Assembly (NCBI GenBank): GCA_900708905.1
Contig: CAADRB010000002.1
Coordinates: 3,212,365 to 3,276,364, forward strand
Reading direction: 5' to 3'
From: Hymenolepis diminuta
Taxonomy: Eukaryota; Platyhelminthes; Cestoda; Cyclophyllidea; Hymenolepididae
DNA: 64,000 bases
Positions 15,327 to 64,000 of the stretch are shown one piece after another. The translations under genes and the position numbers were made by a program. The notes under the pieces are model-generated. The model did no database searches. It worked only from the letters and a program-made list of their open reading frames with translations, and had not been told where the DNA came from. Each line of letters opens with the position of its first letter. Positions within the stretch are counted from its first letter, which is position 1.

Positions 15327-18300
15327 ATGACCGAGGAATTAAAAGAAGTGTATTTTAATATCGATAAAAATCGCACAGGTACGTGATTGTTTGATAAAAT
15401 ATTTTAATCGTTAATAAGGTATTGAAGTTGCAAAATCCTTAAATAAATATTGCATGGCTCACAAATTTCTTACCCAACATCTAATTAATTTTTCACGAGC
15501 AACATATTTGAATTTCTAAACTTATATGCACAAGAACAGTCCAACTTATTTATGTACTTAATACGTAGATTTTATGAATTCGATAGCGCCTTTATGTATA
15601 TCTTAAATTCGATACTTCTCATCCTAAGATTTAGGCATTTTACAATTTTACGGTAAATGGTGCCCAGAACTAATAATGTTGTATGTCAGTATGAATCCTA
15701 TTCTTTTTAATTTATTTGAATTCTATGCTCACTTTTTCATCGTGATTTTTCGCACAATAAGTTGATGGAAAGGGCGAAAATTGTATCATTCAATTAATAT
15801 TCTCCAAGATTTATTAACTAAGTTGTGTATTCTAAATTAGGATATAATTTTATGTGATTATTAAAATTAAGAGGGAATAATAGAGAACTCGAGTATGACC
15901 ATGCATAATTTTTTAAATACATCAATTATACAGCTTTGAAAACAATGCTATAATTTTCCCTTCATTATATTATTTATTAAGATGCAATTACCATAGCTGA
16001 CCTTGAAAAATATCGCCAGGAAAACAATCTAAGTGAGGACTTCATTCACGTAAGTTGAAATATTTGATGAATAGGAAGCATTCTTATTTGATTATTCTAA
16101 TTTCTTAAAGTCAGCGTGTATGAGATATTTGCTTACCAACTCCGCGGTTTGTAGAGTAGCGAGGAAGTTTTCAATTTTATAATAAGTGATTTCCCAATCT
16201 TCTCTGTTCTTTCCTAAGCTAAGAAATTGTTTAACGTGGTTCTATTAGAAATCCATAATAAAATAGTTTGAAATCTTGTATGCGAAAGTATTCGAATTTG
16301 AAAATTTTACTTTTTGCAACTATCTCCTCATCATGGACAGTCAAGTCGATACAATTTATTAAATCATATGGAAAAAATTCTTTAATCTCTCATATAACAT
16401 TTGAACGTTTCATGGGTACAAACTTTAGAACTGACACATTTTGCACATCACATAGTACATCTATTTTAAATTCAGTACTTTGAAACCATATACTTGGGTG
16501 ACGTTCAATTAAGGGAGGAATGACACAGGATACAGCACGAGAATTTTGGGTGTACTTATAATTATGATATTTGACCGCCAATTTTTAAAAGCTTTTTAAA
16601 TAATTTTTTATAATTAATCTTTTATCAAAACACACTGTAGAATCAAAGGTTGCATTGATTGTTACCTTTAGGAGTTGTGTATTTCTTGATGCTCTGAGAA
16701 GAATTCGTAAAAATCTGTTGGTACTAAAATTTTCCAAGCTCAATAAGAGAGGTTTAACAACATTTAACCGGGGTAGAAGGAAGGCATCCTTGAGCCGCTT
16801 TCACGAGAAATTCACATTCTACCACATCTCTTGTTGACCAGAAGTAGCCAGGATGGTTTTTCACTGACACTACTGGAAGTGCACTGATGGGCATTGATTC
16901 CCTGACCTCTAACTTGACAGAGAGCTTGTTAACCAATGTGCCACCAACATTCCAGAGCACAGAATTTTTCAATTACTGCTGTTCCTTACTCTTACTTACT
17001 AATGAAATTTCCTTGTTAATACACATGGTGCCTAGGGTATCCAAAGACACTCATATTTTTGTAATCTAAATTAATCCGGTAATTATTAATGTATTTTTTA
17101 TATCATGGCAGACACTAATAAAATTTGTTGGAGTTAGGTAACAACCAACGGTTTGCAGCTAACAAATTGCGACAACCAATTCGTAGCTGTTTGAGTAAGA
17201 GCCAACAACAATTGTGAAACAGAACACCAAGAGGTGAGTAGACCAAAATGTATTCCAAGAAGCCACGACGAGTAACAGAGAGAGGGAGAACAGCGTGTTG
17301 AGGAAGAGAGGAGATGAACAGGACGTGTAGGAGTCTGCCCTGACCAGTGTGTTGTCAGGAGAACCAAGGGTAGCTTTATATGAGTCACTTGGGTAAGGCC
17401 ACGCCAGAGCATGAGTGCAGATGTGCCTTTCATATGAAGCGAGGCGGTTATAGAAAAAGGGGGGAAATCGATGGACGCGTTTAGACATGTCAGACAGGGG
17501 TTATGCGTCATAGGGACATAAATGGGGTCACTCCAACTTCGTGGGCGAACAACAGAGGTATTATCGTGGAGAATGCGAATAAAAGGTAATTGTGGAAAAT
17601 GCATAGAGNNNNNNNNNNNNNNNNNNNNNNNNNNNNNNNNNNNNNNNNNNNNNNNNNNNNNNNNNNNNNNNNNNNNNNNNNNAACTAATGAAATGAAAAG
17701 ACACGCTGTAATAGTGTCTATAATAACGAAACACGGGAATTTAGAAATTGCAAGATTTCTGGAAGCCGCTACATCTCTCGTTTGTAAAGTTAGGAAGGAG
17801 CCGCTGAATGAGGGAAATGGAGGTGAATTGGCCGCCACAAGCAGGAGAAAACAGCATTGTCAACGCTCTGCTGACTTACTCACAACACGTGAGCTTGTCA
17901 TAAGAGTGCATGACATGATGGACGAAAATCCTGGGAAGTTAATGCGCGACATCTTGCCAAACATCATCAAGTGTCTGAAGGAAGCATAAGTAATGTTCTT
18001 CTTCAACACCTCAGATACAAATCATACGTTCTTAGGCGAAGTCAATTTATGTTGACAAAAACAACAAAAGAGAATCACTTATTGTGTGCACAACGACCTT
18101 CGGTTTTTCTCTGACGAAAAAACTTCCACCAGCATCAAAAAATCAATCCTAGGGATGATGAGTGGCTGTGTGCAGGTGGACCCCACTGAACTACCAACTG
18201 TTATCCATGTGCACAAAGTTTCCACCAACAGCGATACTTTTCGGCGTTGTGAAGGGCAGTGAGGGATGGGCACATCATGACTCCTCATTTATTTCCACAG

Positions 18301-21300: not shown

Positions 21301-22569
21301 TAATGATGCGGCTGCTATATAATTTCCAAGCAAACTTGACAGTGGGAAACTTGAATTTTGTTTTTATCTTCATTAGCCAGATTAAACCACTGCGGTTGGC
21401 CATTCTGCATACCATTTTTGTATCGGTGGACATTGAACAGATAACCTCTGGCTTTTTAAACGAGCACGTTAGCCTCTGGGCCACCGACGTTTGTTGTCAC
21501 TATTATATTAATGTCTTTTATAAATAATAAAAAAAGTGTTTCACCATGACCTATTTTACTACAAGAAATCTCTACTTATAGAATATTAAATCAATGTGAG
21601 TTTTGCTTTCATGATTTTTAATGAGGCATGTCATTCGTGATCGTGAAACCACGGTCATGCAAAACAACTAAATAAAGAAATAATGAAAAGAGTTTTCGAT
21701 TCCGTATATCATTAGACATCTTCTTTATTAAATTATCTAGACTGTAATATTAGAATTTTTGATATTCCATGTTCACATATCTCAGGAAGAGGAGAAGATA
21801 TGAAACATGGAGCTAACACATCAATATAAACACCGAATAGGCCAAATTTGTTAATATTATTTCCTTTATTACCCCACTGAAAGTTTATTTAAAGGTGATC
21901 TAACCACTGGGGATTTCGAGGTTACAAATGTATAGAATATTAGGCATTCTCTCTGCAACATTAATTAGTACTATTTGCCATGTATTATTTTAAATTACTT
22001 TAGAGATGAACCAATCGGTACCATAGAGGGTCAGCAAGAATTGCTTCAAATTGCCGAAGACATGGAACCCGACAAGCAAAAGGCTATTTTTGAGCTAGTA
22101 CAACAAGTCGAAGATGTTCATGGGGCAAACGATAGAGTGAGTTATTCGAGACACTTTTTGAATATTCACCTTGATATGAACCCGAATAAGTTAATTCTGT
22201 TTGAATCAGATCATATTAATTATTTTTAACCAAGCGTTTGTTCGATTAATTTGATTTAAATAAAATCTTATCTATATTTGCATCTGTTATAGAGATAAGT
22301 GTTTTTAATTTTATTTAAATGGTATTGATCTAACCGCTTTATCGTTCTTTTTAACTGTGTTACTTCGACCAAATTTCATTCATTTCATATCGTTTTAGGA
22401 TATTGTACGATCCCTGAAAACAAAACTGGACGATAAGTACGGCAGACTCTGGCACATTTTCATTGTGAAGGGTCAATTTCACGCATTTTACTCCTATGAA
22501 GGAGGAAACTCTTTTTGCTTCAAAAAAGGACCCCGTATCTATATCATCTACAAGACACCAAAAGAATGA
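15327..22569 (+). CDS. Tegument-allergen-like (TAL) protein: EF-hands plus dynein-light-chain domain
   Basis: Calcium-binding family of the parasitic-flatworm tegument; the C-terminal domain resembles dynein light chain LC8. Five exons in phase: 15327-15378, 15982-16049, 19194-19291, 22004-22136, 22399-22569, giving 173 residues, close to known TAL proteins (about 20-22 kDa). EF-hand 1 loop begins D13 (D13, N15, T17, D18, T21, ending D24). EF-hand 2 loop begins D47 (D47, D49, T51, G52, T55, position 12 is K58). Residues about 84-173 carry the light-chain fold pattern, with KLDDKYGRLWHIFIVKGQF and FCFKKGPRIYIIYK. Both EF loops lack the usual Glu at position 12, so calcium binding may be weak or altered. 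Two introns are very large (3.1 and 2.7 kb); the first of these carries a dead mariner element, an assembly gap and a SINE-like repeat. An AATAG/TCAG sequence just before the ATG could serve as a trans-splice acceptor. Which numbered TAL it matches cannot be said. Confidence 0.85.
16775..16947 (-). repeat. tRNA-like SINE copy (TAL intron 2)
   Basis: Read on the minus strand: A-box-like TGGCACATTGGTTAAC (16928-16943), B-box-like GGGAATCAATGCC (16890-16902), then a body with GTCAACAAGAGATGTGGTAG and GAATTTCTCGTG, ending near GGATGCCTTCC. Confidence 0.6.
17609..17682. other. Assembly gap (74 N)
   Basis: Run of N within the TAL intron, at the 5' flank of the mariner relic. Any open frame reading through it is meaningless, and the 5' end of the transposon cannot be seen because of it. 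Confidence 0.99.
17683..18863 (+). mobile_element. Tc1/mariner-superfamily element, inactive, 3' end intact
   Basis: Plus-strand remnants of a mariner-type transposase run from about 17690 to 18730, followed by a 3' terminal sequence ending CACACCCTG at 18855-18863 next to TA repeats, the expected TA target. Order of remnants: helix-turn-helix-like N-terminus (MKRHAVIVSIITKHG), the linker LRYKSYVLRRSQFM, the KNFHQHQKIN region of the first catalytic block, WIDSVANEGRPYVFQQDSAPS around the second Asp (the QQD core), and a C-terminal piece with IKACSSF. These match the widely distributed mariner lineage with a YVFQQDSAPSH core. Several frameshifts and stops make it non-functional. The 5' inverted terminal repeat is not identifiable, being in or beyond the N gap. 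Confidence 0.8.
17693..18730 (+). pseudogene. Degenerate mariner transposase ORF
   Basis: The first frame is open from 17693 to a stop near 17989 and covers the DNA-binding domain. Subsequent coding signal shifts frames several times (about 18000, 18110, 18330 and 18540) with internal stops. The first acidic catalytic position appears replaced or frameshifted; the second (QQD) is readable; the third lies in a SPDF-type stretch followed by a stop. It is a fossil with no expected activity. Confidence 0.75.
18864..18889. repeat. (TA)n microsatellite at the mariner 3' junction
   Basis: TA run immediately after the CACACCCTG terminus; either the target site or slippage-expanded target duplication. 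Confidence 0.85.
19292..22003 (+). other. TAL intron 3, 2.7 kb
   Basis: Bounded by GTAAGT and TTTAG. Contains a purine-rich, GC-richer block (19720-20000), a second GC-richer island (20720-21070) of unknown nature, and a partial SINE-like copy (21375-21488). No coding sequence recognised. Confidence 0.5.
21375..21488 (-). repeat. tRNA-like SINE copy, partial (TAL intron 3)
   Basis: Minus strand: TGGCCCAGAGGCTAAC at 21469-21484 (A-box position) and CTGTTCAATGTCC at 21428-21440 (B-box position); the tail portion is missing or diverged. Confidence 0.55.
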
Positions 22570-25396: not shown

Positions 25397-25890
25397 ATGG
25401 CTACCCGTAGGAAAACCGCAAAGCCTCAGGCTGAGGAACAGCTCTCTCTTAAAGCTGCTTTGAACCCTGACGAGACTGTTTTTGGTGTTTGTCATATTTA
25501 TGCCTCATTCAATGACACGTTTGTTCATGTTACTGATTCAACCTGTTCCGAAACTATCATTCGTGTTACAGGAGGGATGAAAGTCCGTGCTGATCGCGAC
25601 GAGTCTAGTCCCTACGCAGCTATGCTTGCTGCCCAGGATGTAGCTGAACGTTGCAAGGCTTTGGGTATCACCGCACTTCATGTTCGCATACGTGCCACCG
25701 GTGGAACTAAGTAAGTTTCAATTGCTTAATTCTTATATGCTCTAGGGCTCGTACCCCAAGTCCTGCTGCCCAGTCTGCTCTGAGAGCTTTGGCTCGGTCG
25801 GGAATGAAGATCGGCAGAGTTGAGGATGTTACACCAATTCCAACTGATAGTACTAGAAGAAAGGGTGGTCGTCGTGGTAGAAGATTATAA
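25397..25890 (+). CDS. RPS14: 40S ribosomal protein S14 (uS11)
   Basis: Component of the small ribosomal subunit platform that contacts 18S rRNA and the E-site region. Two exons, 25397-25710 and 25746-25890, separated by a 35-nt intron (GTAAGT...TCTAG), give 152 residues (human 151). Signature stretches are [40 protein letters not shown] and the basic C-terminus [20 protein letters not shown] at 25915-25920 follows the stop by 25 nt, a compact 3' UTR. The ATG at 25397 gives the conserved N-terminus [11 protein letters not shown]. It is convergent with VPS33A, whose stop is 623 bp away. Identification is certain. Confidence 0.98.
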
Positions 25891-26513: not shown

Positions 26514-29500
26514 TTAGTTGTCCATTGAAGCAACATGAATCGGGTCGGATAACGATTTTATCAGCGTTTTCCAAGTAAGCATACCAGTGGTGGCGAATAT
26601 AAAGCTAGCTAAAGGAGAAAGAGTACAAGTTGAACAGAATGGTGGTAGGTTAAAGAGGTTGATGGTAGTGATTACCTTCATCGTAGACCACTACTTTGCG
26701 CAAGGCGGCCAATTCAGAGTGGGTCATTCCGCCAACAAAGGCAACAACGACCGTTCTACTGCGTTCTCCCGGGGATGGGTTTTTAATAAGGTTATTGCCT
26801 GTATTTGACGTATCTCTAGTGCATTGCTCCAGACTCTGAACTTCATTCACTTCAACAGCTGGAATAAGATTCATCACAAAGCTTCCATCTCCCCCATTAG
26901 CAGCTGAGCCATGGGAAACAAGCCTAAAAGACTATTGAAATCTCAACATGACCACTTACCTTCGGCTTGCACTAATGGCAGTAGATGCTGCTGTAGAAAG
27001 CAGGGTGGTACTATACGAGTTAACAATAGAGCTAGTTGAAAGTAGTGGACGGGTTGGCCATCCTAGAGCCATAGCTTGCACCAGCCGTACACTAACAGGA
27101 ACTGAACTGCCGAAAATTTGGGCAAAGTCGTTGTCAAGGTTCTGCTCCCCAGTGTGATCCCCTCTATTCACATGCAAACGAAGACTTCTACGCAGTGTGC
27201 TTTCATAGGCCAGTGAGACAGATGCTATCGTGTGTCGAACGGCAGCGCTTGAATCACCGGACAGGACAGGATCTATCTGGTTGTTCCCTGGTCGAGCAAT
27301 CAATGAGAGCCGTGATCTCTCTTCGACTAAACCGAGAGTTCGAAGATTGTTTAACGTCAACATATGCTCTGGTCCATACATCTACAACCGAAGGTGATTC
27401 CTAAGTAAATTGTAGAAACATGTTTAAAACACTCATCTGCTATTATGAAACACTTCTGAATGATAAACAAGCACTCTAACTAGTTAAAGCAGGCCAGTCA
27501 GATATACACATTGACCGCTACGCCATCGGTGCACACTTAGAGTTTTCGACGTGGGTAGAGAGAAGATATACGCTCATATTATAAGCCTTCTTGGTGACAA
27601 AGTTAACCAACGAGATTGACCACCCACTAGATGTGCGAGGATGACCACCGCACTCGTGACCTCTGGTTTGGCAAATGTGCGCCACCGGTGCACATCGAAG
27701 GAAAGTGCTAACACTCATTCTGAAGCCTCTCTGATGAGAAACTCACGTTCTGACACTCCTCTTTTAATCAACTAAAGAATAGGCATCGATATTGAGGTTC
27801 CAGCCTCTGACCCGACTAACATGCACATTGACCGCTGCGTCTTCTGCACACACTAAACGCACTGGAAACTAACCTGAATAATTTCACGCATATAGAGCTC
27901 CAGTGCTTGTTGTTTAAGACCACCACTGCAGAAAGATTGTATGCAGATAAGTTGAAGGATCTAGAAAAAGGAATGATTTATTTATCAAATTTTCTCACTT
28001 CTACTAAAGGAGCCATTTGAAGAATACGCTGTTCAATGTAGGGATGAATTTTGTCCGATTCATTGCCACTTAAAAAGTCTAAATGAAGAGAGAGAGTGAA
28101 TTAAGTGTAATTGTATATTTCAATCCATACCTTGTTGGGCCCGGTAGGAAGCCATAAAATTTTCGGTTGTGGCATACTCCTGAACAGCTTCAGCAATCGA
28201 CATATCTATAATCATAAGATTTGAAATTGTAAGATCTATCATATTGAATCATGAAAGTAATTTCTTGATTTCTCAACCAAAGCTCTTCATCTCATCAAAT
28301 TTGAAGTCGGAAACAACTACTAATTAACATTAGTCGTACAAGAAGACAACTGGGTGATATGCTTAACTTCTATTTAATGTGAAAAGATTTCGAGAAATAT
28401 GGTTACACATGTGATGTCCAGAAGGTGGAGAAATGCCACAAAGCTCAATGAATCCCAGCTTTATTCACTTTACCGTCGATAACGCAGCGATTAGCGAGCA
28501 TGATTCCCTTCTAACGAGCGGAGCTAACCACACTAATTCAGTCGAGATGGACGATAGAACTTATGTTTCAGTTTAGGGAAGCCCCATAATACAATTTTTC
28601 ACAAAAGACGTGAATTGGAAAGAGCTATGCTTAAGGGGTTTAGGAGGTATCCCTTGGCCCTCGGTAATAGGAATGCAGACATCTCTCAGCATATTAATTT
28701 TTGTCCTCTAATATTTTTCCCCGCTTAGATAAGTTCTGCATATGTAAGACAATTTAAATTTTCCATCAAAATCCATCTCCTGTCCAAGCGGCTCAGTCAA
28801 ACGCAACAGAGAACACAGGCTCGAACCAAATTTAAAGTATCTTTTTCCCATAGTATTTATCAAAACCAAAAATATGAAACTTACGTAATGATGCAGAAGC
28901 ATGCAACTGTCTTAACTCCGGTAATTGATTAACCACTTGTTTTAAAGCGGTCAAACTCTTCGAGTTCTTAGTTTCCTAAATTACGAGATAAATAGCAAGC
29001 AATAATGAGCCGTAAACTTACATTCACAACGCTTGATAGTTCTTTGGTGCGTTTGCTAAGTACAGCACCAACATTGGCAAAATTCTGGTCGCGAATTTCC
29101 GAAAAGAGCAAATCAGCTGAATTGAGATGCACTCGTTTGGAGGCACTTTCGCTCCCAAATTGGGGCATTTTCATACTTCCTATTGATAAAATTTTTTAGA
29201 TTTTTATTTGTTTGCTAACTAACCATACATTACGGGCCAAACTTCGTTGATAAGACCCTCATAGATAAGTTGACTCAAACATGGTGTGAGGATATCGACA
29301 CTGCGATCAATGACGACAAGTAGGTCAATCTGACCTGGAGAGTTCAGGGGTTGAGTCATTACACTTTTATCATCTTCCGTCGACGTGTCCGCATTAGCCT
29401 CTTGACGCATCTGCGTCAACATTTCGACAACACGCTAAAGGTAAACAGTTTAATCAGAGAAAAAATGTTCTACCTACTTTAGCTTTAGGGCCTTTCGCTC

Positions 29501-34600: not shown

Positions 34601-37600
34601 GGTACTAATTGCTTCCCACCAATTGATATTCCTATTTTTATTGTTTAAATATATTTTTCATTTAGTTTTGGCTTATATGTATAGGGATTTATGAGTTTAA
34701 CCTACTAACATACGGTGATTAATAGGTAAATAATCATAGGTCTGATTGCATTCTCTGTTAGTACTCGGAAGGTCTTATTTCTACCGTTTCAGGCAATGAA
34801 GGAACTAGTTTTGTGACTGACTTAATAATTCATATTTACTAAATGTAAAAGTTTCTTCCGCTATTTGCAGAGGGTCTGTAGTCACTGACTTAGTAAACAT
34901 AGCATTCAAATACGAATAAATCGTGATTCAAAAATATTAGCGATAGGAATTGAGTGAAAATATAAAATCAACAAATGAAATGGTGGCTGCTTAGAACAAA
35001 TACTTATTTATAAAATTGGGATTAACACATTTGTCAACAGTTTCTTAAACCTCTTAGGACCGTGTCATAGTACCTTTGACCTCGACTTTTCCCTAACAAT
35101 ACTTAGTGGTTCTTCCATATACCTGGGTAGTATTTCTCTTATAACTCGTTGTCATCTTTGAAATTGAACGACTGATTCTTCTACTCCACATTGTTCCCAT
35201 AAATTGGCATGCTCTTGAATTTAAACAGGTGGAGGTTATTGTAAGCGTTTACTTTTTATTTATATGCATTAAGTGATTAGTTGTTTTCAGACCAGATAAG
35301 ATTTGAGTTTTTTTACTCATGATTTTCTTCCTATACCTACTATGAGTATAGGAAGATGCGTTCCAAAATATGCTCATCATTCAATTAACTTTACACTATC
35401 AAAATAATTTTGATTTACCCTTAATTACGTGCAAGAAGTAAAATGACTTTCTTTTACTAGATGACAAGAATAGGGGATTTATTCAATCTTGACTTTTATC
35501 GTCATACTTGGGATTAATTTATTTTCTCGCGGCTGTTCTCCTTTGGGATTTCTCATACTGCAGTTTGTAGGGATCACTAGAGGGACTATTATCAACCTCA
35601 CTAATTTTAATAAATAGAGTTATCAAATCCATAAAATTATATTAATGCTTAGACAAAACGATACTATTCTTCCGGTTTTAGGTATTCTTCACGACTGTCC
35701 AATATAGAGGAGGTTAACGTAAACATTGTATCGCATACAGTCTAATGCAGAATTCTCGTAACTCTGATGACCGTAGTCAGATCAAAACAAACGTAAATGT
35801 GAATACTCAGAATCAGCTACATGTCAGTTGGTTACTCCACACTTAGATAATGCCCTTTTACTGTTAAACCTTTGGTCTGTCAAAAATCTTTGGATAAGGA
35901 GGCGCGTATTAAATCTACTAAACGGTGAGTTAATTTCATTTTGAAGATTCCAGTTCTGAAAACGAATAATATCTCTTGATCTCATCTTGTGATTTGTATT
36001 TGTTTTTTGAAATCCTTCTTGGCTAAACCTTTGATGCTATTAAGTTCAGTTATCGTGACACACGATTAAGATTTCCCTCTGCTAATTGTGATGTTCACAG
36101 TATTAAGACTCTAACCGCGAAATCCTGGAATGGCTGAATTTTCATCCCAGAGCGGCTTAATTATCACCCTTATAGTACCCGAAGTTAGACGTGAGAAGAG
36201 ATATTGAACAGATTTACGCTGTGGGTAAAAACCGGGGGGAAGGGGGGTCGCGTTTCATACAGTTTCAGCCTACAGTTCATTAATGGAAGAGTGAGTTTTT
36301 AGGACATATTCTGTGTCCTGAATTTAAGAAGGTACAAAATGACAGTTCGAGAGACTACCGCGAATATAATGATTGATACTTCATTGTTTAAATTCGTATA
36401 TTTTTGCAATCGCAAATTTTATAAATCATTCAAAATTTGTTTTTTTTTGACGTAGGTGCACATCTGAAACTGTAGGAGTCTAATGCTTAAGTCAGTGGCG
36501 CTTATCCTATCCTCATAATTACAGAGTAGTTCGAGTGATACATGATTTTAATTGTTATTTCAAACTTGCCTCATCGTCCTATTTATTATTTTCGTAAAGG
36601 CAGAGAAATAGATTTGTTAGGCATATCTCTGCACCATATATATGTATTGAAAAATTTAGATTCACATGCATGCTCAGCCTAACTCCCGAGTCTATTTGGA
36701 AAGTACTATCCAACACTCACTCTGGTTATAGAGGTAGCATGGAGTCTCTTAGCAAGAAACTCCAATTTTGTAACTCCTTTTAGTAGTCAGACTTCCTTTA
36801 GCGTCGTTGGCCATTCTTCTTACTGCTTTTACACCGAGCATCGAACTCGAGACCTCCGGCTTCGCAAAAGAGCACGTTAATCGCTGTGCCACAGACGAGC
36901 ATTTCACCAATTGTTTACTTGGAAAACGAAGGATTATTTGAGTTTTCCGATCTTAACGTTCAGATTTATGTAATTGGACCTATTCATCCATTTATTCAAG
37001 TGGCTTGTAGTGAAGTATGCGTGTGCTAATATAGTAGGACAACAACTCGAAATGACTCATACCAGGATGAAAAAAATATAATTAAGCGAACAAAAGAGGG
37101 CAATCTAGTTAAAGTGTGCGGACAGTTAAGTGATTGGGATTCCCAACAGTGTAGTTACAAGATGCAAATTCCGCATCCAGAGAAATATTAGGCTGCCTTG
37201 CCTCTATCCACTATGAATGTTGAGAAACAGGTTCCACCAATGGACTTGGAGATTATTATGCTACTTGAAAGTTACTTGCTAAGGTAATTACATTCAACTA
37301 TGATCGTCGAATGCACACAAGATGCCACAGTCTTGCGCAGGAATAGTTCGTTGGTGATTATTATTTAACGGTTATCAATTCTGATTTTATGCTTTATCAA
37401 AAGCGAAACTGTAGTTTCTACATATAATACGACGATCATGTGTGCCCAAGTCATAAAGCAGGGAGGCTTGTTAATCTTGTGCTCGAAATTTTCATTTAAT
37501 GTCCTGACTTATAACAATTCTGAAAGTTGGACTCTTTGTTTTTATTGTTGGCGACCAATCTTAATTTCAAATTCAGATGAAGGAAGCATACTTTGGTGAA

Positions 37601-43600: not shown

Positions 43601-46600
43601 AACGGTGACAATGTGAGTCGAATCTACACAGGAACAGGTGCTTTGGGTGGGGACAGATCAAAATTCAAGATCGTCCAACGCAGTGCCACTAGAACCATCA
43701 AAAACAATTTCTTCGACAGCGCTAAACAGGAAGCTATGGTCGCTCTCCTGAATAGTTCCAGTCTCTCCGGTTGGCAGCGTCTTGTTGCTGGTATGTTTAT
43801 TTTACCGATAGATACTAACGATGGTCGAATTCAGTATCAAAATCGTATCATTTGTTTTATAGGTCAATTTCTACCTCGACCGCTGCATTTCCTTCCTCAA
43901 TCCGTTCTACAGAGTATTCTTGATCGTAATGCAGAGTTTACTCATCGGGAAAGGCTGAAGGTGTTTGTGGGAACATGGAATGTGAACGGAGGTCGATATG
44001 TACGTTCTCTGGCTCATCGGGATAACGATATTGCCGACTGGTTGTTGGAGAAAGAGAAGAGATATACAGGCTACGTCAATCTTCATGCAGACCCAGAAGC
44101 ATTCTCTCGTCCTACGGACATCTATGCCATTGGATTTGAGGAGATTATTGACCTGAATGCTGGCAATGTTGTGGCTGGTAAGCAGAGTTCTGAAAGCCAG
44201 ACGTACTGGGGCACAACCATGCAAGCTATGCTTGATCGGAATTCTGAAACGGGAGAACCCTACGTCCTTCTCTGTACAACACAGCTTGTCGGAGTATGCA
44301 TATACGTTTTCCTTCGGCTGGGTCTTTGTGACTATGTACGTGGACTCTCTTCTGCATCTGTTAAGACAGGAATGCATGGAAAAGCCGGAAATAAAGGGGC
44401 CTGTGCTGTTAGATTTCAAATTGCCTCAACCTCACTGTGTTTCTGTTGCTCCCATCTAACTGCCGGGCAAACAGCTGTTAAAGAACGCAATGCGGAGATG
44501 CACGACATTGCCCAACGCTTGATTCTAGGGCCAGATAAGCGCAGTGTCCTCATGCATGACTATGTATTTTGGTTTGGTGATCTCAATTATCGTATTAATC
44601 TACCTAACGACGAAGTGAAATCATTAATATCTCGATCTGCCTGGTTGGAGCTGTTGAGAGCTGATCAACTCTCAGTGCAAAGAGAGGCTAAAGAGGTGTT
44701 TGATGGGTTCAGCGAGGGTCCCCTACGTTTTGCTCCTACTTATCGATACGACTTGTTCTGTGACTCCTATGACACTTCGGAAAAGCAACGCTGTCCAGCA
44801 TGGACTGATCGGATACTCTGGCGAAAGGCGAAACTGGTCTTTAAGAAGTCAAACAGTCCACCGTTGAATAATGGCAGTAATGGAAGGAGTGCTGACTCTA
44901 GTGACGAAGAGAGGCTGCTCTGCAAGAATTTACTTGTTTATTACCGAGCGGAAATCAGAACTAGTGATCATCGGCCTGTCGCTGCAGTTTTTGATATCAA
45001 CATTCAAGTGGTATCTTTGATAGGAAATTTTATTTATTGTCCTTTTGTTTTATTTGGTCATCGAAATCATTTGAATCAGGTTTTCATCGAAAGTTATTGG
45101 GGGCAGAGTTTGAGTTATTTCAGCTCGATTTCCGAAAATATTTGTTTTGTTGTGTTTTCCCTACTGTTGCTGCTATTCTGGCGATATGTACGTCTGAATT
45201 TTGACTAAGACTCTGAGAATCAGAACAGATTTAGTGTTTTGAGCAAGAATTACTCAAAAACATTGTAGAAATAAGTAATCGCTCTCATAACAAGTATGAG
45301 ATTTTCCAAGAGCACCAGCTGTTTGGTATTTGATCCATTATTGGAAAATTGATACTAACGAACCAAGCATAACTTGGACCTCAAAGTACTAGCATTGCTG
45401 AGTAATAAGACAACAGCGCTAGAGTTGGGTGTTAGTGAAACTTAACCGAGAGCCTCCTACCCTATGTTAATATCCAGTACATTTACAGCATCTGTAAATT
45501 GAATTACGTATGGTGCATTGCCTAGATTAGAAGATGAAGAAATTGATCTCAATTTAATATTTCATGTTACATGTCTATTTGTGTTCTCTTACTGCAATTA
45601 ACTTAGAATATGCCATGTTCTACAACTGCTAGTATTCCATCACGAGCTTGTGCTCATCTCTGAATTTATTTTTACCGACCATTTCGTTTTCTGATTCGAT
45701 TGTATACCCTAGTGTGCTTTTTGATGAAGAATTGCTGATCATTTTTAAAATGCGGAATGTTCAAATTACATTATGCCTGAAATGAATATGCGTCATTTCC
45801 GTCTAATTTTAACGTGCATTTTTCAGTTGTCTCGTCGAAATTTGCCTCCTGTCTGATTTTGCAAGCAGCTAGATAAAGAAAGCGGCTATGAACTTTTAAT
45901 TAGCCACTTATCTAATCGCATTATAAGGTGCTTTACTACTCCAGTACATTTTCAGCACGACTACAATTTTTTTGATTTATTAAAAAGCACATAGCAGAAT
46001 TCAGAACTCTTCGGATTAAGGTCTTTCTGTTTGAGAGATTGCATTAAATCGGTACTTACGTAATTATCATCTTTAAGCTGATTACATCATGTTGGATAAT
46101 CGGTGAAAAACTTACAAACCGAGACATCAGTTATGTGCGGAACTTAGTAGAAAATTAGGTTACAATGCTAAACGATTTGAGATAACGGTTAAAATAAGAC
46201 AACTAAAGCATTCAGAGAGCATTTAGGAAACGGAGTTTATGCAAGTTTACGATAGAGAAACTCAGGTTATGTAAATACCATTGCAAGTTAACCATGTACA
46301 ATGCGACCTAATGCAATGGTTAAGGACCACCATATTACCTCAGCCTTGAGTAATTAAGACAAGATTTGTCTTCAGTAGTAACTTCTTTTAATATAAAGTA
46401 GCTATGTGAATACAGTCATTTCACTTACGTAAAATTATATGCTCATTATTTTGAATTTTTCAAACTCAACTTTCCCCAGTATCTTGGAATTGCTCTTGAG
46501 AAACGTACAATTTTCCATCCCTCCAGCTTTTCAGAATTAGCCGGTACGATTGGCCATGTACATCACCGGATGTGCACCTGATAGACATACACGTTAACCA

Positions 46601-49600: not shown

Positions 49601-52600
49601 AAGAGATAACTTAGAATATTTAGATTCAAAGTAAAGTAAGACGCTTTTGATGATGTCCTAGCATTTTATATGTCATTTGTAGTCCCCCCACGACCTCCAC
49701 CGCCAGTTCCTCCAGCTCCCAGTTCCAGTTTAAATATGCCGGATCTTTCCGTATTGAAGCAACTCTTGCCATCACCACTGCCCCTCCATCTGGTGCACAG
49801 CTGCAGTGATCTTTTAAATGAGGTCAGTAATGTGGCTAGCGACAGCAGAGATGGGGGACTGATGATTGGTCAGACGACCAATTATGATCTTCAGCCACCA
49901 ACTCTACCATGGAATGCATCAGCAAACGTCTCCCCTCAACACATTAAACTCGTTCAGCCTCCATCGCTACCACCACCTCCACCACCTAAACGTCCTCCTC
50001 CACTCCCTTCTGCTCAACCATCAGCAGTAATTAACTCGTCTGTAGTTCAGCAACAACGACCGATATCGGGTGTCTCTTCCTCACCACAACCCCTAATTGA
50101 TCTCTCTCCGGTGTAGGTTTTTTATTCTTTTCTGTCATTTTATCGATGTACTAATGTTATACCTAGAAGTCAGGTTTAGTCTAGATTATATTTAACCTAT
50201 TTAATAGACATTTATTTTTCGTATTAAAGTGAGGTCCTATTTAGTTCTGCTGCTATGTACCCATTAGCAATAAAGAAGACAGTTGCATAGTTACTTCAGG
50301 ACATTTATTAACGTAAAAGACTTTATAAGGTTAACCGTTTTCTTTCCATAATTGGCGTTAGAAATTCAATCCACCATCTGATCAATGACTTTTTTGTCCA
50401 GACTTATTGTCAATTTTTCAGAAGCGTTGGGCACTCACATGCTGATAGGAATTATGGGCGTCTCAGAGAATCGCTAATCCCTAGACAAAACATAAACCCT
50501 CCGACACTGAGCTATGTAGTGGTTTAAGTCTGAGATTTATTTGTTAAATTGGGCATTACTGTTATTACCATTAGGTCATGTTAGTATTAATTCAAATACA
50601 TGCGCGTTGTTACTTGCCCGTGTTCACTATTGGTCAATTTAAGGACACATTCCATCCTCCTGTAAAGAGAAGGGCATTACGTGTATGGTTGCTTGTGTGT
50701 GCAAACTGCTATTAGTACATATCTACCTGTTACTTATGTACATTCTGACAGGACCCGTGTGCACTTCCATTATTCAATACGTTCCCTGTTTAATTCCAAT
50801 GCTACTACCAAGTGAGGTTTAGTGGAACAACCCTAGTGAAATTCCGGCTAACAATCCCAAAATATCCACAAAAATAATAGTAGAGAGGAGACGTCAAATT
50901 TAAAGACATTAAGACTCTTTTAAGATATTCAGTTACCTCAGAAAAACTATTCGATATGCAAGGTTATTCATTAGTTCGAACAACAATCTCTTAACTATAC
51001 GTCAAGGAAAAATATTTAATAACTTGCATACTCTCATTTTCTCCTTGACAAATTCAAAATACAACGACCTATTTCTGTCGGCTTCCAGTCAATTAGTTAA
51101 CATTAGCATCTCGGTCTTACTTGTCTAGTATTTCCTCTAGTAGTAAAGCAAGGCACTGTGTTTCAAAGGCTTAAACTCCCTAACAGGATCCATTCTTCAA
51201 GGAAAATCAGTTTTACACATTCTTATATTTTAGATGTTCAACTAAAACGCTAAATAGATAAATAACATGAATGAAGAGGTTACTGAAAATGGCACGAGAT
51301 CGATGGTACTCGGTGCAAATCCCACGACCGGAATGACTAACTGCACTGGTTAGTCTGGTTAATAATGGTACGACAGAATTTGAATTTCTCACAGGAGAGG
51401 CTCCATGATTCCGCCTCTCTACTCAAGATGAGTGTTGGAGGAGGCTTTCCCAAATGAGGTTGAGAGTCATAATTAGGGCCTATATCGGCCATAGAAAACC
51501 CTTCAAATCTCGCCTAGCCGCATTGTAATGCGTTACTAGCTGCGAAACTGAACACTATGAGTGCCAATTAATTTCTCTTGAAATTATAAATAAGTAATAG
51601 GTGACGTTTCAATTGGTATGTTCGCATTTTTTTCAAGAGTCTTCAAGTACACCGAAAATATTCGGTTAGGCCTCCTATCACTTTAATTTTAACCTATATG
51701 TGCATTTTCACATATGATCAGCCTTTTGTGGTGTGACTTCTACACTTTTGGTGAGTTTAACTTTTACTTTAATTTATATTACATTTCATTTGTGATTCTA
51801 GAGTAGAAAAACAAATACCTGTAACTTCGTAAAAGTGTACTTTTCGAAAACAGGTCTCAAATAGATACAAATGTATAAGTTAATGATATTTAGGTAAATA
51901 TGCCTAAGCCACCACTTCTCAAAATCAGAATTGCCCGTATTTGATTGTAAACCAACTCCATAATGTATAAATTAATATTTCAATTGCTAAAATTTTTTGT
52001 TAATATGAATATGGAATATGAAAAAAACATTAAATTGTACGCTAGCATTGGCCTGCAGTTCTTCAAAACACTGGAAACTGCAAATATGGAACTAGTGAAC
52101 TTTGGTTTTTTCATGACAGTTATTGGTTTCCTGTAATAATAAAAAAATCTTTGCTCTCGAAGAATTGATTTGCAAACTTCACAGCTTGATAATTTGCCAC
52201 GTACATAAACGATTATAGGTTTTTATAAGGAGTCTCATTTCTATCACCCTGTATATTAGGTTTTTCCCTTCCAAAGTAAGAATAAATCGAATTTCTAATA
52301 TCTGATTATCCTACTTTTGCGTTTCGAGCATTTACTTTTCCCCATTTAAGTGGTATACTCTATTCGTAATGCATAAAATTTTATACTTGTTTCCTTTTGT
52401 TTCAGCCCAACTCCCCCAACAACCAAAGCGGTGAGTAAATGTAATTATTTCAATGTTCTTACAAGGAGTTTTTAGGATATATTTCATATGCCTATGCTAT
52501 TTAATAGGCAGAGTTGTTTTATGTGTTTTTATTGTATCTCCCTTTATTCTTATTAAATTAGCAAATATATTAATCCGGAATTTACTTCTTCACTATTCAG

Positions 52601-53700: not shown

Positions 53701-54606
53701 TATCCTCCCCTCATTCCGGTTATTTCATCGTCATTCCAACTGGCTTGGTCGCATTTGTTGTCACCCGATTCTTACTATTATTACCTCTTTAACAGAGTAT
53801 ACGTGTCGAGCTAGATTCTTTGTGCGTCTGATTTTGATCTATTTTAAGCCATCCTCTTTCCTTGTGTCGCCATTTAATTATTCTACCATTCCTCCTTCTC
53901 CTTCTCTCTTCCCCCTTTTGTGATAATTTGATTAATTAGTCAACATGATTCATGAGTATTGATGTTGTAAATTTGTGATTAGTTTTTTTCTTTTCTCCCT
54001 ATGCATATAGATGGTTGTGTAATGAACTGAATGATAATAATATACTTTAGTTCAGTTCAGTGTGGTCTGGTTGGACTTTTTAGTATAGAATTTTTGATGA
54101 GTTATAGTTCCATTGGTTTACAAATATTTCGGCAAAAGATTAAAAACATAAAATAGGGTTATTATTCACATGGCTATGCAAAAAATTGCTTACAAGTGTT
54201 AATCATGGGAAAGCATGTGAATATGGAGAATAGGAGAAGGGTATATTCGAGTAAGAAACTGTTGAGATGATCAAGAAAAAGTAGTTAATGAAGGCAGTAC
54301 ATTAGAAGACTTTATTTGAATTGTAAAGTCATTCATTTTTCCGTATTCTCATATGAAGTTCAATCACTACTTAATGTCCTGACCTAATTCTATTTCCACG
54401 TTATTCGGAGCTTGTTGAACGAGTGATTTTATTCCGTAATTGGTTGTCACTTCAAGTTATTTGAATCTTTTTACGGTAAGGTGTAGATTATCTTATCATA
54501 CACCGCAAGAAAGTAAAATAGCATTAACTTATTGGGAGAGTTATGCCACTAACAGGAAAAACCCCTCAATTTCATTAAGAGCAGTGTTTGCAAAACTAGA
54601 TTTTGG

Positions 54607-54735
54607 CAGGCATAAAGTATCCTGAAGCCGCTCTTATAAGAAACTTGCATTATCGACCCTTCTTATTAACCTGCGTGTTTATTCACCTATATCAATGGAT
54701 GACACCGATGAGTATCAACCATGTGACCTTTAACT
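54607..54735 (-). repeat. tRNA-like SINE copy, diverged
   Basis: Minus strand contains GTTAATAAGAAGGGTCG, AAGTTTCTTATAAGAG and GGATACTTTATGCC in family order. Confidence 0.45.
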
Positions 54736-55030
54736 AACGGCTGCAGTCTGATCAATCACTTAAATCATCGGCATGATTCACTACAGATGTGAGTAGAAAC
54801 GCCTAGCTTGAACCCACTCGAAAGAGGAATGGACTGTGGATTTGATATGAGCTATAGTACTTTATCAAGAGCTTGAACGCTTTTTAATTAATTCAGTTTG
54901 TAAGAGGAAGAAATTGGAGATTTCAAAAGCCCTGAGCAGAATTCATAAAATTCTGTAAATGGGGTTTCTTTAACCAAGTAATAACTCCAAAGTCTATTTA
55001 GAAAAGCTTTTTCCGGCAATCGTTTTGGGT

Positions 55031-55095
55031 AGAGAGGTAGCATCATGGGGCCCCATGGTGAGAAAATCTAATTTTGCTTATAAAAGTCGGACTTA
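55031..55095 (-). repeat. tRNA-like SINE tail fragment
   Basis: Minus strand GATTTTCTCACCATGG and CATGATGCTACCTCTC match the tail of the 61.4-kb copy. Confidence 0.45.
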
Positions 55096-56482
55096 AATAG
55101 TGCAGATATACCGCATCATCGGTGAATATTTAAATTGTAGAAGCTTTAGTTGAGCTACTAGTCCAACCCTTCCTCCTATGGGTCTGAGCTCCCATAGTGT
55201 GCAGCCCAGGCTATATATGTGCCTACGTACCATTAAATCGGTGTAAAGCTCCTTATCGTCTTGAAAAATGACGATATCCTACCACTTTCTGCTTATATTA
55301 AAGATAAGAGTTTAATAGGTAGATGCTTATTTTAAGGTGGGTATGATATACTGAGGATCCTTTTCAGGAGAAGAATAAACTTCTCAGACTTGGATTAGTA
55401 ACTGGTAACTCTCTATTCTTAATACAAACTTAATTTGAAATTTCTATTGAATCTGTAGCCACCACATGGTGACTCGTAGGTCTGCTCAGCCTATACAACC
55501 ATGGTGTGACTCACAAGGGAGGCAAAACAGACAGTACCCCTAAGCATGCTTTATTTTACATGCTTTACACATAATACTGTTTTCACGTACGCAGTTTAGA
55601 CGTGTAATCAGCTCTCCTTCTTACAACTCTCACTCTCTTCCTTCTCTGGTATCGTTTTCTACACCACTGTCCACCTAAACTCCGGCTCCTCTTATTAGGA
55701 TCGATTGGGGTTTCCTGTTAGCCTTTAAGATGACTCATTTTTAAAGGCCATAGAAGTAACTTTTCCTGGAATTTTTTAGTGCTACTTTAAGACCTTTTGA
55801 AATTTAATGAATGGATGTCGGTCTTCTATGTACAATGGAATTTAACAATTCCGTAACCGCTTATTCCTCGAACCAAATCTGAATTATTTGGTAGCAGAAG
55901 AACTGTACTTATTAAATCTCATATATTAATTAATATGTGTCATCTACTTGATATAAGCTAAGATTTTCTTTACATAATAATATTGCATTTCTCCGAGCCC
56001 TTAACTCTCAGCTATTCCAATAACCTGATTTATTTATTTCTATCTTACTTAAATTTTGAAATCAATATTTTGTGTGGATAGAGATGGATTCTTTTAACAG
56101 AATTGTAAAATGTTCAGTCCTGGATTAGATGACATGATTAAACGAACAGATATTAAAATTTGCGACTATTCTGATTGAATATCCTAAACGTATATAAATA
56201 GAATTACTCAGAGAGTAGTTTTTACTAATTTTATCTGCTTTGGAATCAATATATCAATATATAAAATACTGGTAGATATTGTTGCATTTCTATTCGATAT
56301 AAAAGTTATTTCGTGCAGGACTTCTAGAAACTTTCTGATTTTATTTCAACACAGTAGTAAAAGGAATAGTGCAAAAAGTAGTCAAATAAAGACTTTATAT
56401 GACTCTGTTTGATCGGATTCCATATTTTAAGGCTTTCAATAGCATATCTCCGGTAGAAAACTTACTTATGGCACTGAATAAT

Positions 56483-56525
56483 TAGAGTTCACCTTGAGTG
56501 CCCAAGGTGAACTCTATTGGGCACT
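56483..56525. repeat. Two overlapping, mutually exclusive perfect inverted repeats
   Basis: Arm TAGAGTTCACCTTG (56483-56496) pairs perfectly with CAAGGTGAACTCTA (56503-56516) over 14 bp with a 6-nt loop. The loop and 3' arm also begin AGTGCCCAA (56497-56505), which pairs with TTGGGCACT (56517-56525). The two stems share 56503-56505 and so compete. Confidence 0.85.
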
Positions 56526-59500: not shown

Positions 59501-59947
59501 TTTGTGAAGGTAAAGATAAGTGAATCATAAAGATTTGGTCTTAAAAGGTAAACGGCTCCAGTTGTTTTTGATGCCTCTTACTACAAAGGCTTGAGATACT
59601 TACGATTGTTATGTTTCAAAGGTGATGATTGCATAAACATAGATTTACTCTCACTTATATTTGCTAAATGTTGCTTTTCAAAACCGGTGGAAATTCTTTC
59701 GAAAGCAGCAGAAAGCATACGTGTAGAATTAACAAAGCTTAAAAGGTAGAATGGTAATGTCACTCCACCTTCTTATTCAGTGGTTAACTTGGGGAGTTTA
59801 TCCTTACTATTATCCCGAAACAGGTAGTTGATACTAGGTAAACTGATATTAACATAAGAGTTCAAGAGAGCTCACTCAAGATGAACTTTAATAAAAATTT
59901 ACAAGACCATTTACGAATGCGTTTTCCAACAAACCCATACTGAACAG

Positions 59948-60050
59948 AGAAGTGGCATCGGGAGCCTCCCTAGGGAGAAACTCCAAATTCTGCCACCTTC
60001 TTTAAAAACAAGTGAGGTCGGCCATTCCGTCCAATGTCCGCACAGTGGAC
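59948..60050 (-). repeat. tRNA-like SINE tail fragment
   Basis: Minus strand GGTGGCAGAATTTGGAG, TTTCTCCCTAG and GGCTCCCGATGCCAC match the family body and tail; the tRNA-like head is absent. Confidence 0.5.
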
Positions 60051-60187
60051 ACCTCACCTCAACGGAATTCGAGCAAAAAGTGAAGGGTGAAGTTGCCAAC
60101 TGCATGCGAATGCTTGCAGAAAGGAATAATCTTGCAGTACCAATAGGATCATTATTCCTAAGGCGTAACGTTCGACCAGGACTTCCA

Positions 60188-60280
60188 GTATCTGATGTCT
60201 GGTCGTTTGAAACCTCGTAAGGCCAAAATAGTTGGAACGCCAGATATCCTATTGTTATTCTTAACGTAGACATCAGATAC
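60188..60280. repeat. 13-bp inverted repeat flanking a 67-bp segment
   Basis: GTATCTGATGTCT at 60188-60200 and its exact reverse complement AGACATCAGATAC at 60268-60280. It may be the terminal repeats of a small element or chance. Confidence 0.6.
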
Positions 60281-60722
60281 GCCTCAAGCCTACTCGAAAG
60301 CAGCAGGAAATACTCTTCAGCCCGAGGAGAGAATAGGTGATAATCTCAACTCTCATGAACCGAATTTTCCCGCTCCTTCCCAAACTATTTCCTCTCCGTT
60401 GCAACTATTTGTCTTATCCGAATAGCGTAATGTATATTATATTAATAAATGGGCATATTTTATAGTACTATATTATTTATATCAGGTCCAATATAAATAA
60501 GCAGGAATCCGTTTAGTACTATAATCGTCCAGCTTCAAAGTATCACCCTTTCCTCCCTCTCACAACACTTAAACGTCCTTTGCATTTCAACATTATCATC
60601 TATTTTCAGTAAAAACAAAACTCAAACAGCTTTGCCTCAAAACACGCGACAGTTTATATGCAAAAAGTGGGTGGGAAACACACATCAAAGATGACGACGA
60701 CGAAGACGACGAAGATAGCCAA

Positions 60723-63700
60723 TTAGCGTCGACGTGAAACCGAAGAATAAGTACTCCTCGACGACGCGCTGGAATACGACGAGTAGGATCGTCGTCGACG
60801 TCGTCTTGAATATGCCGAGGAAGAACTTCTTCTTCTACGACCTCTCAAACGATCTCGTGATGAGCTTCTCGTATAAGAGCTCCTTCGGCGACGTGAGTGT
60901 CGTCGTCTACTTAGTGATGAGCGAGAACTGGACATTTTCCTGCGTCTACGAGAGCGAGATCTCGACGAAGAACTCCTTACTCGATCCCGACGTGATCTTC
61001 GACTACGAGTTGACCCTGATGATCGTCTTCTTGAATGAGATCGGGGGACTGGAGAGGATGAAGATGACGAAGACCCACTACTTCTTGAAGGTCGCCTGGT
61101 CCGACTCCTACTTGATACCGATGTTGTTGAAGATCCGGATGAAGAGACTGACCGAGATCGTATCTTCTTGGCTGATGCCTTAGAACTCTACAAGAGAGAA
61201 GAGAAAAACTGTCAGCAGGTGTACAAGAGATTGGGGGAAGAATACATGATTAGTTACTCCAATACCGTGATCTTTTTATGAACTACTTCCAAGCCCATTT
61301 ATGAAGGTTTTTACCAACCCTCATCTTGGATTGAGGGGTAGCATCATGGAGCCTAAAGGTTGAGAAACTCGAATTCTGCCACTTCCTTTAGTCACCAGAC
61401 TTAACCAATGTGATTGATTTGCGGGTCTATAGGTATCGAACTCATGTCCTCTGACCTTGCAAACGGGCACGTTAACCACCGGTACACTAATACGACTGGC
61501 TAACACATTGACCTATAATTTGAACTAATCACATGTAGATATTTTACACAAGTGGCAGAAACAGAGTAATAAGTAAATGTGTAAAAGACTAACGATGAAG
61601 ACCCGGAAAACTTGGCCATCTACCAAGATTGAGGTCACAAGATAAATGCTCATCAATACGGATGCTGTGATGTGGATCGTGAACTGCACTGGTTAATTCC
61701 GATTAAGAAGGCGGGTGTTAGAATGTGAGATTCACATAAGAGTAGCTATTGGATATCTTTCTTTTAGCCAAATCATATGGAAACACACTTCCCTTTCACT
61801 TCTCTATTAGTCATTTTGAGAATAGAGAAGACGAACTATATCAGTGCTATGCCTCCTTTTTTCAAAGCCTAACATTTAGGCTCGAGCTTTAAATGAACCA
61901 CTTGATCAGATAAACAGGATTGTAGTGTAGCTCCAAAATATGCAAAAAATTACTTGAATTTACCTTAGTAATTGAGGTCGATGATTTCTTCTCAGCCGGA
62001 GGTTCTGATTTCTTTGCATCCGATTCGCCATCACTCATATCCATATCGATAGGTTGAGGAATGGTCTCTATATTACTGCTGCCTCCAAGCGCCAATTTTA
62101 CAGGACTTTTCTTCGTCGAGGACGTTTGGGCACCATTTTCTGCCTCGTCTGTTTGCCAACGACTGGTTGTCCATGGACCGGTCTCCTCTTGATCCCCATG
62201 ATCGCCACCTTTGCTTTCAGGAGTTTCATCTCCCTGCACTTCTTTCCTATCCATCTTAGGACTGCTTGACCGTTCCCCTTTAGATGGACTCTATATTACA
62301 CAATTGGCTTAGAATCGTCAAAAATTAGTGAGAGGGACGCATATAAGTGAATAGGACTTTACTCACCTTGTGCGATGATGATGGTTTGATTTCAGTGGAA
62401 TGCGAACTAAAAGAAAAATACTGTGGTATTAAGAAGAGTTTCTGTAAGCGAATGTCAGCTAATAACAAGAAATTGTTTCAAAATTAAGAGATGTAACGAT
62501 TCGAAATGTAATTGTAAGTGTCATACACCATAATATTCCAACTTCTAAATGCCAACCATAGCCTACTTTTAAAGGGAGAAACATATCCAACCGGCTATCT
62601 TGGTTTAATTTGACCAAGTAATAGGAAATGCAGGCATATTCTCAAATTTAAGGCGAAAAAGTGGTTAAAGAATAAAGTCCAAAATTCAAAGGTAATATGC
62701 TTTCCCAAATTCCACACTAAAATCCGTTAGACCAAATTTCAAGCCCATTAGGAGAGGTGTTCACAGCACTTAACTTATGCAGAGAGAAGGTATTCTGGAG
62801 TTGCTTTCTTATGAGAAACCCAATTTCATCACCCCTCTTGTTAACCAGAATTAACAGAGTCAGTCGCTCACACCACTGGATGCGCACCGATGGGAATTGA
62901 TCCCATAACCTCTGACTAGGTATATGTGCACGTTGACCACCGCATCACTTTGAAAATAAACGAACTTTCCATATTAACGGTAGTGAAAATGCAATTTTGT
63001 GTCCACAGAAACTCTTCAGAACACTCGATTATTTCACCCCTACAAAAAGAGCTCAAATTAACGAAAAATTCGAACATCCCAAGAACTTTTATTATAGAAT
63101 GGGGAGAAACATAAATTTTAATGCACACTTTAACGAAACTCGAATATCTCAAACTGGGGGCAAGAGCACAATTCCTATACCTGTGAATTTAAACGACCGA
63201 ACTTTCAACGTATTATATTCCCAAAAACAAACTCACTCTTCAGCTATGGAATCAGCAACGGGAGGCTTGATATGTGAAGGAGGGCTCAAAAGAGGGGATC
63301 GAGGTTTCTTCGGTGGAACAGCCTCGTCGGGGACATCAGTCAGCCCTTTCGGAGAAACAGTGATGGGAGAAGGAGGTGCTTTCAAGAGAGGGGATCTTAC
63401 TGTTGTATGTGGCTTCTCCACATTCGTAGATGAATTAATCAGCGCTGATCTTGGTGATGCAGTACGTTTTGGCGGTGAACGTTGAGTATGTGGTGATGAT
63501 GGTGACACAGAAGAGCTAGGCCTGCGACGAGATGCATTGGGCTTCAGAGCTGGGGAAAATGAGGCGTCGATATAATCGTCACCACTATTCCATCTTTCCA
63601 ATTCCACCTTCTTCATCGACTCCCGTTTTCGTTGATTCTCCCTGTGGCGTTCTTCCCATTTGCTTACAAGATAAGCAGGTGGACTCCGTGAAGCAATGTG

Positions 63701-63853: not shown

Positions 63854-64000
63854 CTGTAAAAAAAAGAATATATGACAATTGCACCGTAGTTGTATGTCTG
63901 AAAAATTCCCTTCAAGGTCGAAGGTTACTTAGTGCTTGCTTTGTTTACAAAATCTTAACCATCGATTAACACGTTCATACAACGATTTAACGACTTGCAA

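Follow-up and report, generated by a model that had tools for sequence, protein, structure and literature searches.

The scattered repeats of a 64-kb stretch of the Hymenolepis diminuta genome (contig C2, positions 3212365-3276364; this whole stretch is called the window here) are very probably copies of a tRNA-type short interspersed nuclear element (SINE) of this tapeworm, one that is probably no longer active. The family looks like an apparently undescribed member of a well-known kind of SINE. An earlier sequence-only reading of the window had proposed a tRNA-like SINE, and the analysis bears this out: most aligned copies share a GTG start and an (ATT)n 3' end, the head carries A and B boxes, the younger copies are bordered by direct repeats more often than chance, 5' truncation is frequent and the copies do not form a tandem array.

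All searches were made in a genome of 170.6 Mb in 203 contigs. With the copy at 61.4 kb of the window as query, the first genome search gave 283 candidates, the best 40 of which were scored, and when 33 sequences, including one identical pair, were aligned, the unit proved to extend beyond the tail that had been described for it. The first consensus drew 3,558 candidates, with identities of 79-84% for the best 40 scored, and 30 genome copies taken from its matches were aligned and built into a hidden Markov model (HMM) profile of 229 positions. Searched with this profile, the window yields 20 matches at E<=0.5, of which 17 are copies at 15 bits or more, while the reversed window yields none at that threshold (best 3.2 bits); the dispersed family that had been proposed is thus real. 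The 17 copies, 4 on the plus strand and 13 on the minus strand, cover 2,782 bases, or 4.3% of the window. The fetched genome loci gave 156 profile matches at 15 bits, with overlapping loci counted repeatedly, and the same loci reversed gave none. Fifteen of the 16 places listed by the sequence-only reading are among the 17 copies, and the other, the third at 27.5 kb, amounts only to a weak head piece at 27497-27533. Two copies are new (14324-14476 and 28510-28649, both on the plus strand). Eleven of the window copies are 62.9-74.2% identical to the consensus; the typed consensus is 75.7% identical to the 61.4-kb copy (L009) and 72.9% identical to the 36.8-kb copy (L039). The motifs quoted earlier for the family are present, but because the window copies are old few retain them: the A box is found with at most one mismatch in two places, and the B box and the tail are each found exactly in one.

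The unit consists, in order, of a tRNA-like head, a body, a 3' hairpin and an (ATT)n tail. Positions are numbered here on a consensus of 228 columns that starts one base inside GTG. Most of the 30 aligned copies begin at GTG and end at TTGGGAATTATT followed by further ATT, and by eye the alignment shows no common sequence beyond these two limits. At about 229 bp plus the (ATT)n tail, the unit is longer than the 160-180 bp first ascribed to it, and the supposed tail GGCTCCATGATGCTACC is internal, lying at consensus 157-173 with 55 further positions and the (ATT)n run after it. The head (consensus 1-75) carries an A box, TGGCGCAnTGG, from position 9 and a B box, GGTTCGATnCC, from position 53. 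These boxes follow the standard A and B box consensus, and at 44 nt they stand as far apart as positions 8 and 52 of a tRNA, which agrees with the earlier claim of an RNA polymerase III-like spacing. The body (consensus 76-180) contains no recognized domain. A second tRNA-like unit within it (CGCACTGGTTAA) was considered and dropped, as its score was matched by 89 of 1000 shuffles in the comparison with head B and by 233 of 1000 with head A. The 3' domain (consensus 181-228) is formed by the hairpin AGCGTT-GGAA-AACGCT and then (ATT)n; the last 54-56 nt fold at -17.1 kcal/mol, and ATT repeats terminate most of the aligned copies.

The heads were compared on both strands with 15 tRNA genes from the same genome, against 1000 shuffles. 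Head B matches tRNA-Asn best, with a score of 44 that no shuffle reaches (maximum 41), and head A matches tRNA-Val(TAC) best, with a score of 37 that again none of the 1000 reaches (maximum 35). As the best-matching tRNA is not the same for A and B, no parent tRNA is named. The A and B boxes common to every tRNA may account for the similarity; the label "tRNA-like" is safe for the head, and an origin from one named tRNA is not.

Direct repeats together with 5' truncation are characteristic of elements inserted through target-primed reverse transcription, the work of an enzyme of the long interspersed nuclear element (LINE) type. Target-site duplications, which had been suggested as a check, were sought with the element ends fixed in 28 copies at least 81% identical to the subfamily A consensus, the chance level being taken from mismatched pairs, in which the 5' and 3' flanks come from different copies. 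Direct repeats at the ends of these younger copies exceed the control at every cut: 10 of 28 at a score of at least 7 (1.11 expected), 7 at a score of at least 8 (0.37 expected) and 4 at a score of at least 9 (0.15 expected). The ten repeats vary in length from 7 to 16 nt, the lower limit being set by the score cut; on the 5' side each stops no more than 3 nt from the element start, and on the 3' side it starts in the consensus end or at most 21 nt beyond it. Examples are ATTAACTGCAAATAAT / ATTAACTACAAATAAT at L123, TCGCCCTGGTT / TCGCCCTAGTT at L124, and AACCTTAT on both sides of L073. Truncation at the 5' end is common, as the sequence-only reading had supposed of separate heads and tails: among 34 copies selected by their tails, 17 start at profile position 14 or earlier and 17 at positions 27 to 179. 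The copy with the latest start, L080 (profile position 179), has by eye CAGATCT on both sides. A 23-mer from the 3' part of the SINE has 703 genome matches at up to 3 mismatches, 362 forward and 341 reverse and hence without strand bias, and its control has none on either strand. The viral contigs contain no exact match to a 29-mer taken from the 3' end.

Linked sites divide the copies into two subfamilies, A and B (|phi| up to 0.91; chi-square above 15 in 61 of 516 site pairs, 153 copies). Assignment by four linked sites, with tail-found copies excluded, placed 38 of the 108 remaining copies in A and 55 in B and left 15 undecided. The two consensuses differ at 17 sites, the four grouping sites included, all at or before position 176, and their last 52 positions are identical. 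With tail-picked copies excluded, positions 181-228 are the best kept (86.4% in A and 80.2% in B, against 83.3% and 74.3% for positions 73-180), a comparison in which the consensuses that found the remaining copies bore the same tail and so favored copies with that 3' end. Median identity to the subfamily consensus is 83.5% in A (38 copies, 75.0-89.7%), a figure raised by twenty A-type copies selected for a good match to the A consensus, and 78.5% in B (49 copies with more than 120 positions, 57.3-84.5%). The highest identity among these 87 copies is 89.7%. Searched against the genome, the A consensus gave 2,916 first-look candidates, of which the best 40 were scored; the best genome match is 89% identical to the A consensus and 84% to the first consensus. 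Considered by themselves, tail pieces are up to 96% identical over 47-48 nt, a length too short for judging age. No recent-looking copy was found among the copies measured and the best matches, and the family is probably extinct.

The outer flanks of 60 non-overlapping loci contain 17 copies in 162.0 kb, a density equivalent to about 17,900 copies genome-wide; the SINE share of the flanks of known copies is 1.46%. The 23-mer with 703 genome matches is absent from the window and flanks, which hold 34 copies, so that the total must be well above 703. We estimate a copy number of the order of 10^4, from samples that are not truly random and with a window that may exceed the average density.

These features can be joined in a proposed mechanism. 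The A and B boxes inside the head would direct transcription by RNA polymerase III, beginning at GTG some 9 nt upstream of the A box. The resulting RNA of about 230 nt would end in the hairpin AGCGTT-GGAA-AACGCT and an (ATT)n run. A LINE reverse transcriptase would recognize this 3' end and, starting from it, copy the RNA into a nicked target by target-primed reverse transcription. The subfamilies A and B represent a minimum of two source lineages that amplified. A 3' end held by recognition would be expected to give the pattern seen in the two consensuses, which are identical over their last 52 positions and differ at 17 sites upstream.

A number of results weigh against a tRNA-type SINE copied in this manner. 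A tRNA fold of the head, proposed earlier as a check, is not its lowest-energy structure: three typed heads and the two subfamily consensuses all fold most stably as a long stem, closed by 12 bp between the two ends of the head, with no cloverleaf. No Rfam family matches any of 20 SINE loci at E<=1, and ARAGORN calls two of the three typed heads at one relaxed setting and head A only at a laxer one. The excess of direct repeats is small in 35 older copies (3 against 1.29 expected at a score of at least 7, and 1 against 0.47 at a score of at least 8), as expected where many bases have changed. A first, looser repeat test on 51 copies found no such excess, with 1 against 0.7 expected at a score of at least 8 and 1 against 2.4 at a score of at least 7, and the scoring and the ends were altered after this test, whose 51-copy set was more decayed. 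Nine arbitrary stretches of 900 bases (8.1 kb) contain no copy, a count compatible with the approximately 0.85 expected at the flank rate.

The remaining contrary results concern the partner LINE. Comparison of the tail with the 3' ends of resident LINEs, proposed with the original claim, turned up no LINE with a matching 3' end among the matches and the one LINE family examined. The tail search of the genome gave 184 candidates, of which the best 40 were scored and 34 of those fetched, and all 34 are SINE copies; 31 start at profile position 130 or earlier, and the three that start later have mutually dissimilar upstream sequences. The other 6 of the 40 scored fall inside SINE copies already found. 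By eye, none of 150 listed reverse transcriptase places lies just upstream of, and in the same direction as, the tail matches listed (the 40, and the first 100 of the 703). A genome search for the PF14529 endonuclease gave nothing at E<=0.001; PF03372 was not searched. The LINE family examined, L091-L096, comprises six copies that are 77.9-90.7% identical over pieces longer than 800 bases. It has an RVT_1 match at 4.5e-28 in one stretch and, by eye, C2H2-like zinc fingers after the reverse transcriptase. Five of its six copies end in a stretch like CAATAAAGGCTTAGTAGAATTA, unlike the SINE 3' end, and the SINE consensus has no match to the family at E<=1.

A 3' end shared with a resident LINE is a feature of stringent-type SINEs and is not required of all SINEs. 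It is possible, though we think it unlikely, that the element is a SINE of the same kind whose tail is not LINE-derived, and that it was copied under relaxed recognition by a reverse transcriptase tolerating an AT-rich repeat. The failure to find a LINE with the SINE tail, among the matches and the family examined, and the missing PF14529 match both favor this explanation; the identity of the A and B consensuses over a 3' stretch that is also the best kept, with all of their differences upstream, argues for recognition of a specific 3' end instead. More doubtful still is that this is an orphan SINE of about 10^4 copies, in a small tapeworm genome, whose mobilizing LINE vanished or was never an ordinary LINE with an apurinic/apyrimidinic endonuclease (APE), in which case the family would then have died as a whole. 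The lack of a PF14529 match, taken with the zinc fingers and different 3' end of L091-L096, means that the SINE may have used a type of enzyme not yet tied to SINEs.

Two explanations outside the SINE class fare worse. A long terminal repeat (LTR) ends in CA. The unit ends in (ATT)n, its copies are commonly 5' truncated, and close neighbors show no same-strand excess (11 on the same strand and 11 on opposite strands, from 147 non-overlapping sources), all of which makes it very unlikely that the unit is a solo LTR or a terminal-repeat retrotransposon in miniature (TRIM) with a tRNA-like promoter, of the Helenus type (PMC10886601), spread by the enzymes of an LTR retrotransposon. Taeniid tapeworms do possess TRIMs, according to the available text of PMC4558846, which lends this explanation some plausibility; the flanking repeats seen above chance are 7-16 nt long, as against the 4 bp that the accessible part of PMC10886601 gives for animal Helenus, with the limit that the repeat test is blind to repeats as short as 4 bp. 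A miniature inverted-repeat transposable element (MITE), to which the 12-bp inverted repeat of the head might point, or a dispersed satellite, either of which could place copies on both strands, is extremely improbable, as that inverted repeat encloses nothing beyond the head, roughly 75 nt at the start of the unit, the element ends GTGCG... and ...AATTATT are by eye not inverted repeats, the flanking repeats vary in length, and none of the 6 tandem arrays listed for the window lies at any copy.

The copies of this probable SINE lie across most of the window. Almost full-length copies, all on the minus strand, are found at 16729-16949 (profile 4-226, 89.6 bits), 36680-36897 (profile 4-227, 110.7 bits), 61284-61491 (profile 5-226, 145.8 bits, the top score in the window) and 62734-62949 (profile 8-226, 94.3 bits). 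A minus-strand copy at 21340-21489 (profile 4-153, 85.0 bits) is without its 3' part, and another at 27716-27841 (profile 11-169, 17.8 bits) has an internal loss. Copies truncated at the 5' end lie at 28510-28649 on the plus strand (profile 77-227, 35.3 bits) and, on the minus strand, at 54981-55105 (profile 98-228, 67.6 bits) and 59895-60036 (profile 79-227, 72.9 bits). Further copies are present on the minus strand at 27596-27694 (profile 11-117, 38.3 bits), 37791-37979 (profile 36-224, 63.4 bits) and 42227-42406 (profile 3-202, 37.1 bits), and on the plus strand at 51289-51469 (profile 46-227, 112.4 bits) and 61604-61771 (profile 18-184, 35.4 bits). An old copy at 14324-14476 on the plus strand (profile 59-227, 17.7 bits), a very old one at 54565-54735 on the minus strand (profile 40-222, 20.8 bits) and a fragment at 46494-46588, also minus (profile 60-153, 19.8 bits), complete the 17. 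The weak matches are a possible head fragment on the minus strand at 27497-27533 (profile 2-38, 6.0 bits, E 0.16), where 27504-27537 forms a 34-nt repeat with 27821-27854 at 79% identity, and possible 3' fragments on the plus strand at 35320-35374 (profile 165-218, 9.8 bits) and 37201-37256 (profile 174-228, 9.0 bits).

Elsewhere in the window, positions 17609-17682 are an assembly gap of 74 N, and a long open frame at 43589-45208 on the plus strand encodes a synaptojanin-like phosphoinositide 5-phosphatase, with 50% identity to that of Fasciola hepatica, the closest among the matches listed. Serine/arginine-rich open frames at 60723-61187 and 63233-63928, both on the minus strand, could be exons of a splicing-factor-like gene; the interval between the two frames contains three SINE copies, which are thus possibly intronic. 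Among the LINE copies, the family L091-L096 looks younger than the SINE. In its member L094 (G000:C196:249600-252033), similarity to the family stops about 1,730 bases after the start of the reverse transcriptase, and the sequence continues into what we take to be the 3' part of 28S ribosomal DNA (rDNA); L094 may be an insertion linked to rDNA or else a fused pseudogene. Contig C200 (336,654 bases) has matches in mirror pairs, 29846/306809 and 153064/183591, each summing to 336,655 (its length plus one); it looks like a single long inverted duplication and may be an artefact of assembly.

No description of this SINE family was found in the available text of the literature searched, a search that did not extend to most subscription journals or to Repbase and Dfam. 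According to PMC6890685, which describes the genome of H. diminuta, Repbase masked 0.72% of it, with 15.4% estimated to be repetitive, and the available text of that paper has no word starting with SINE. In H. microstoma, the corresponding paper gives repeats as about 23%, LINEs as 1% and 14.8% of the repetitive sequence as unclassified, and the words SINE and SINEs are absent from its main text as available. Among other flatworms, the accessible portions of the Taenia hydatigena paper mention a SINE track and class, those of the Fasciolopsis buski paper describe SINEs as scarce in flukes, and those of the papers on the Echinococcus TRIM, on Saci2 and on densovirus contain nothing on such a SINE. 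For H. diminuta, the family supplies a structured part of the unnamed repeat fraction, and its insertions could mark hymenolepidid phylogeny. Parasitic flatworms are reported, in the available text, to have lost the Piwi pathway, and the end of this SINE may offer a test case for how they lost or silenced a retroposon.

The family can be compared with several known systems. EgBRep, or E.canG7_Brep, of Echinococcus (PMC5327563) is likewise a short interspersed repeat of a cyclophyllidean tapeworm, set beside the Hymenolepis SINE here by its description only. In the accessible text of that paper EgBRep is called a SINE, yet it has 88.5% identity at 70.2% coverage to TRIM, an LTR-type element; EgBRep matches are reported in H. 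microstoma, and SINEs make up 0.9% of the classified repeats of E. canadensis (PMC5327563). Turning to the flukes, the present family resembles the SINE-like SM-alpha elements in belonging to a flatworm and having a tRNA-like promoter. Unlike it, SM-alpha of Schistosoma contains an embedded hammerhead ribozyme; Rfam detects none in the window (gathering threshold) or in 20 SINE loci (E<=1). The eel pair UnaL2/UnaSINE1, a stringent pair compared by its general description only, likewise has a short repeated tail placed after a 3' hairpin and differs in that the tail search of H. diminuta found no LINE with the SINE 3' end. A further comparison is with the tRNA-derived SINEs at large, the SINE2 class in Repbase terms, which are short at less than about 600 bp. 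While the head of the Hymenolepis SINE lacks a clean cloverleaf and neither a parent tRNA nor a partner LINE is assigned to it, the family has in common with these elements its A and B boxes at tRNA spacing, a unique body, a simple-repeat tail, direct repeats, 5' truncation and a high copy number.

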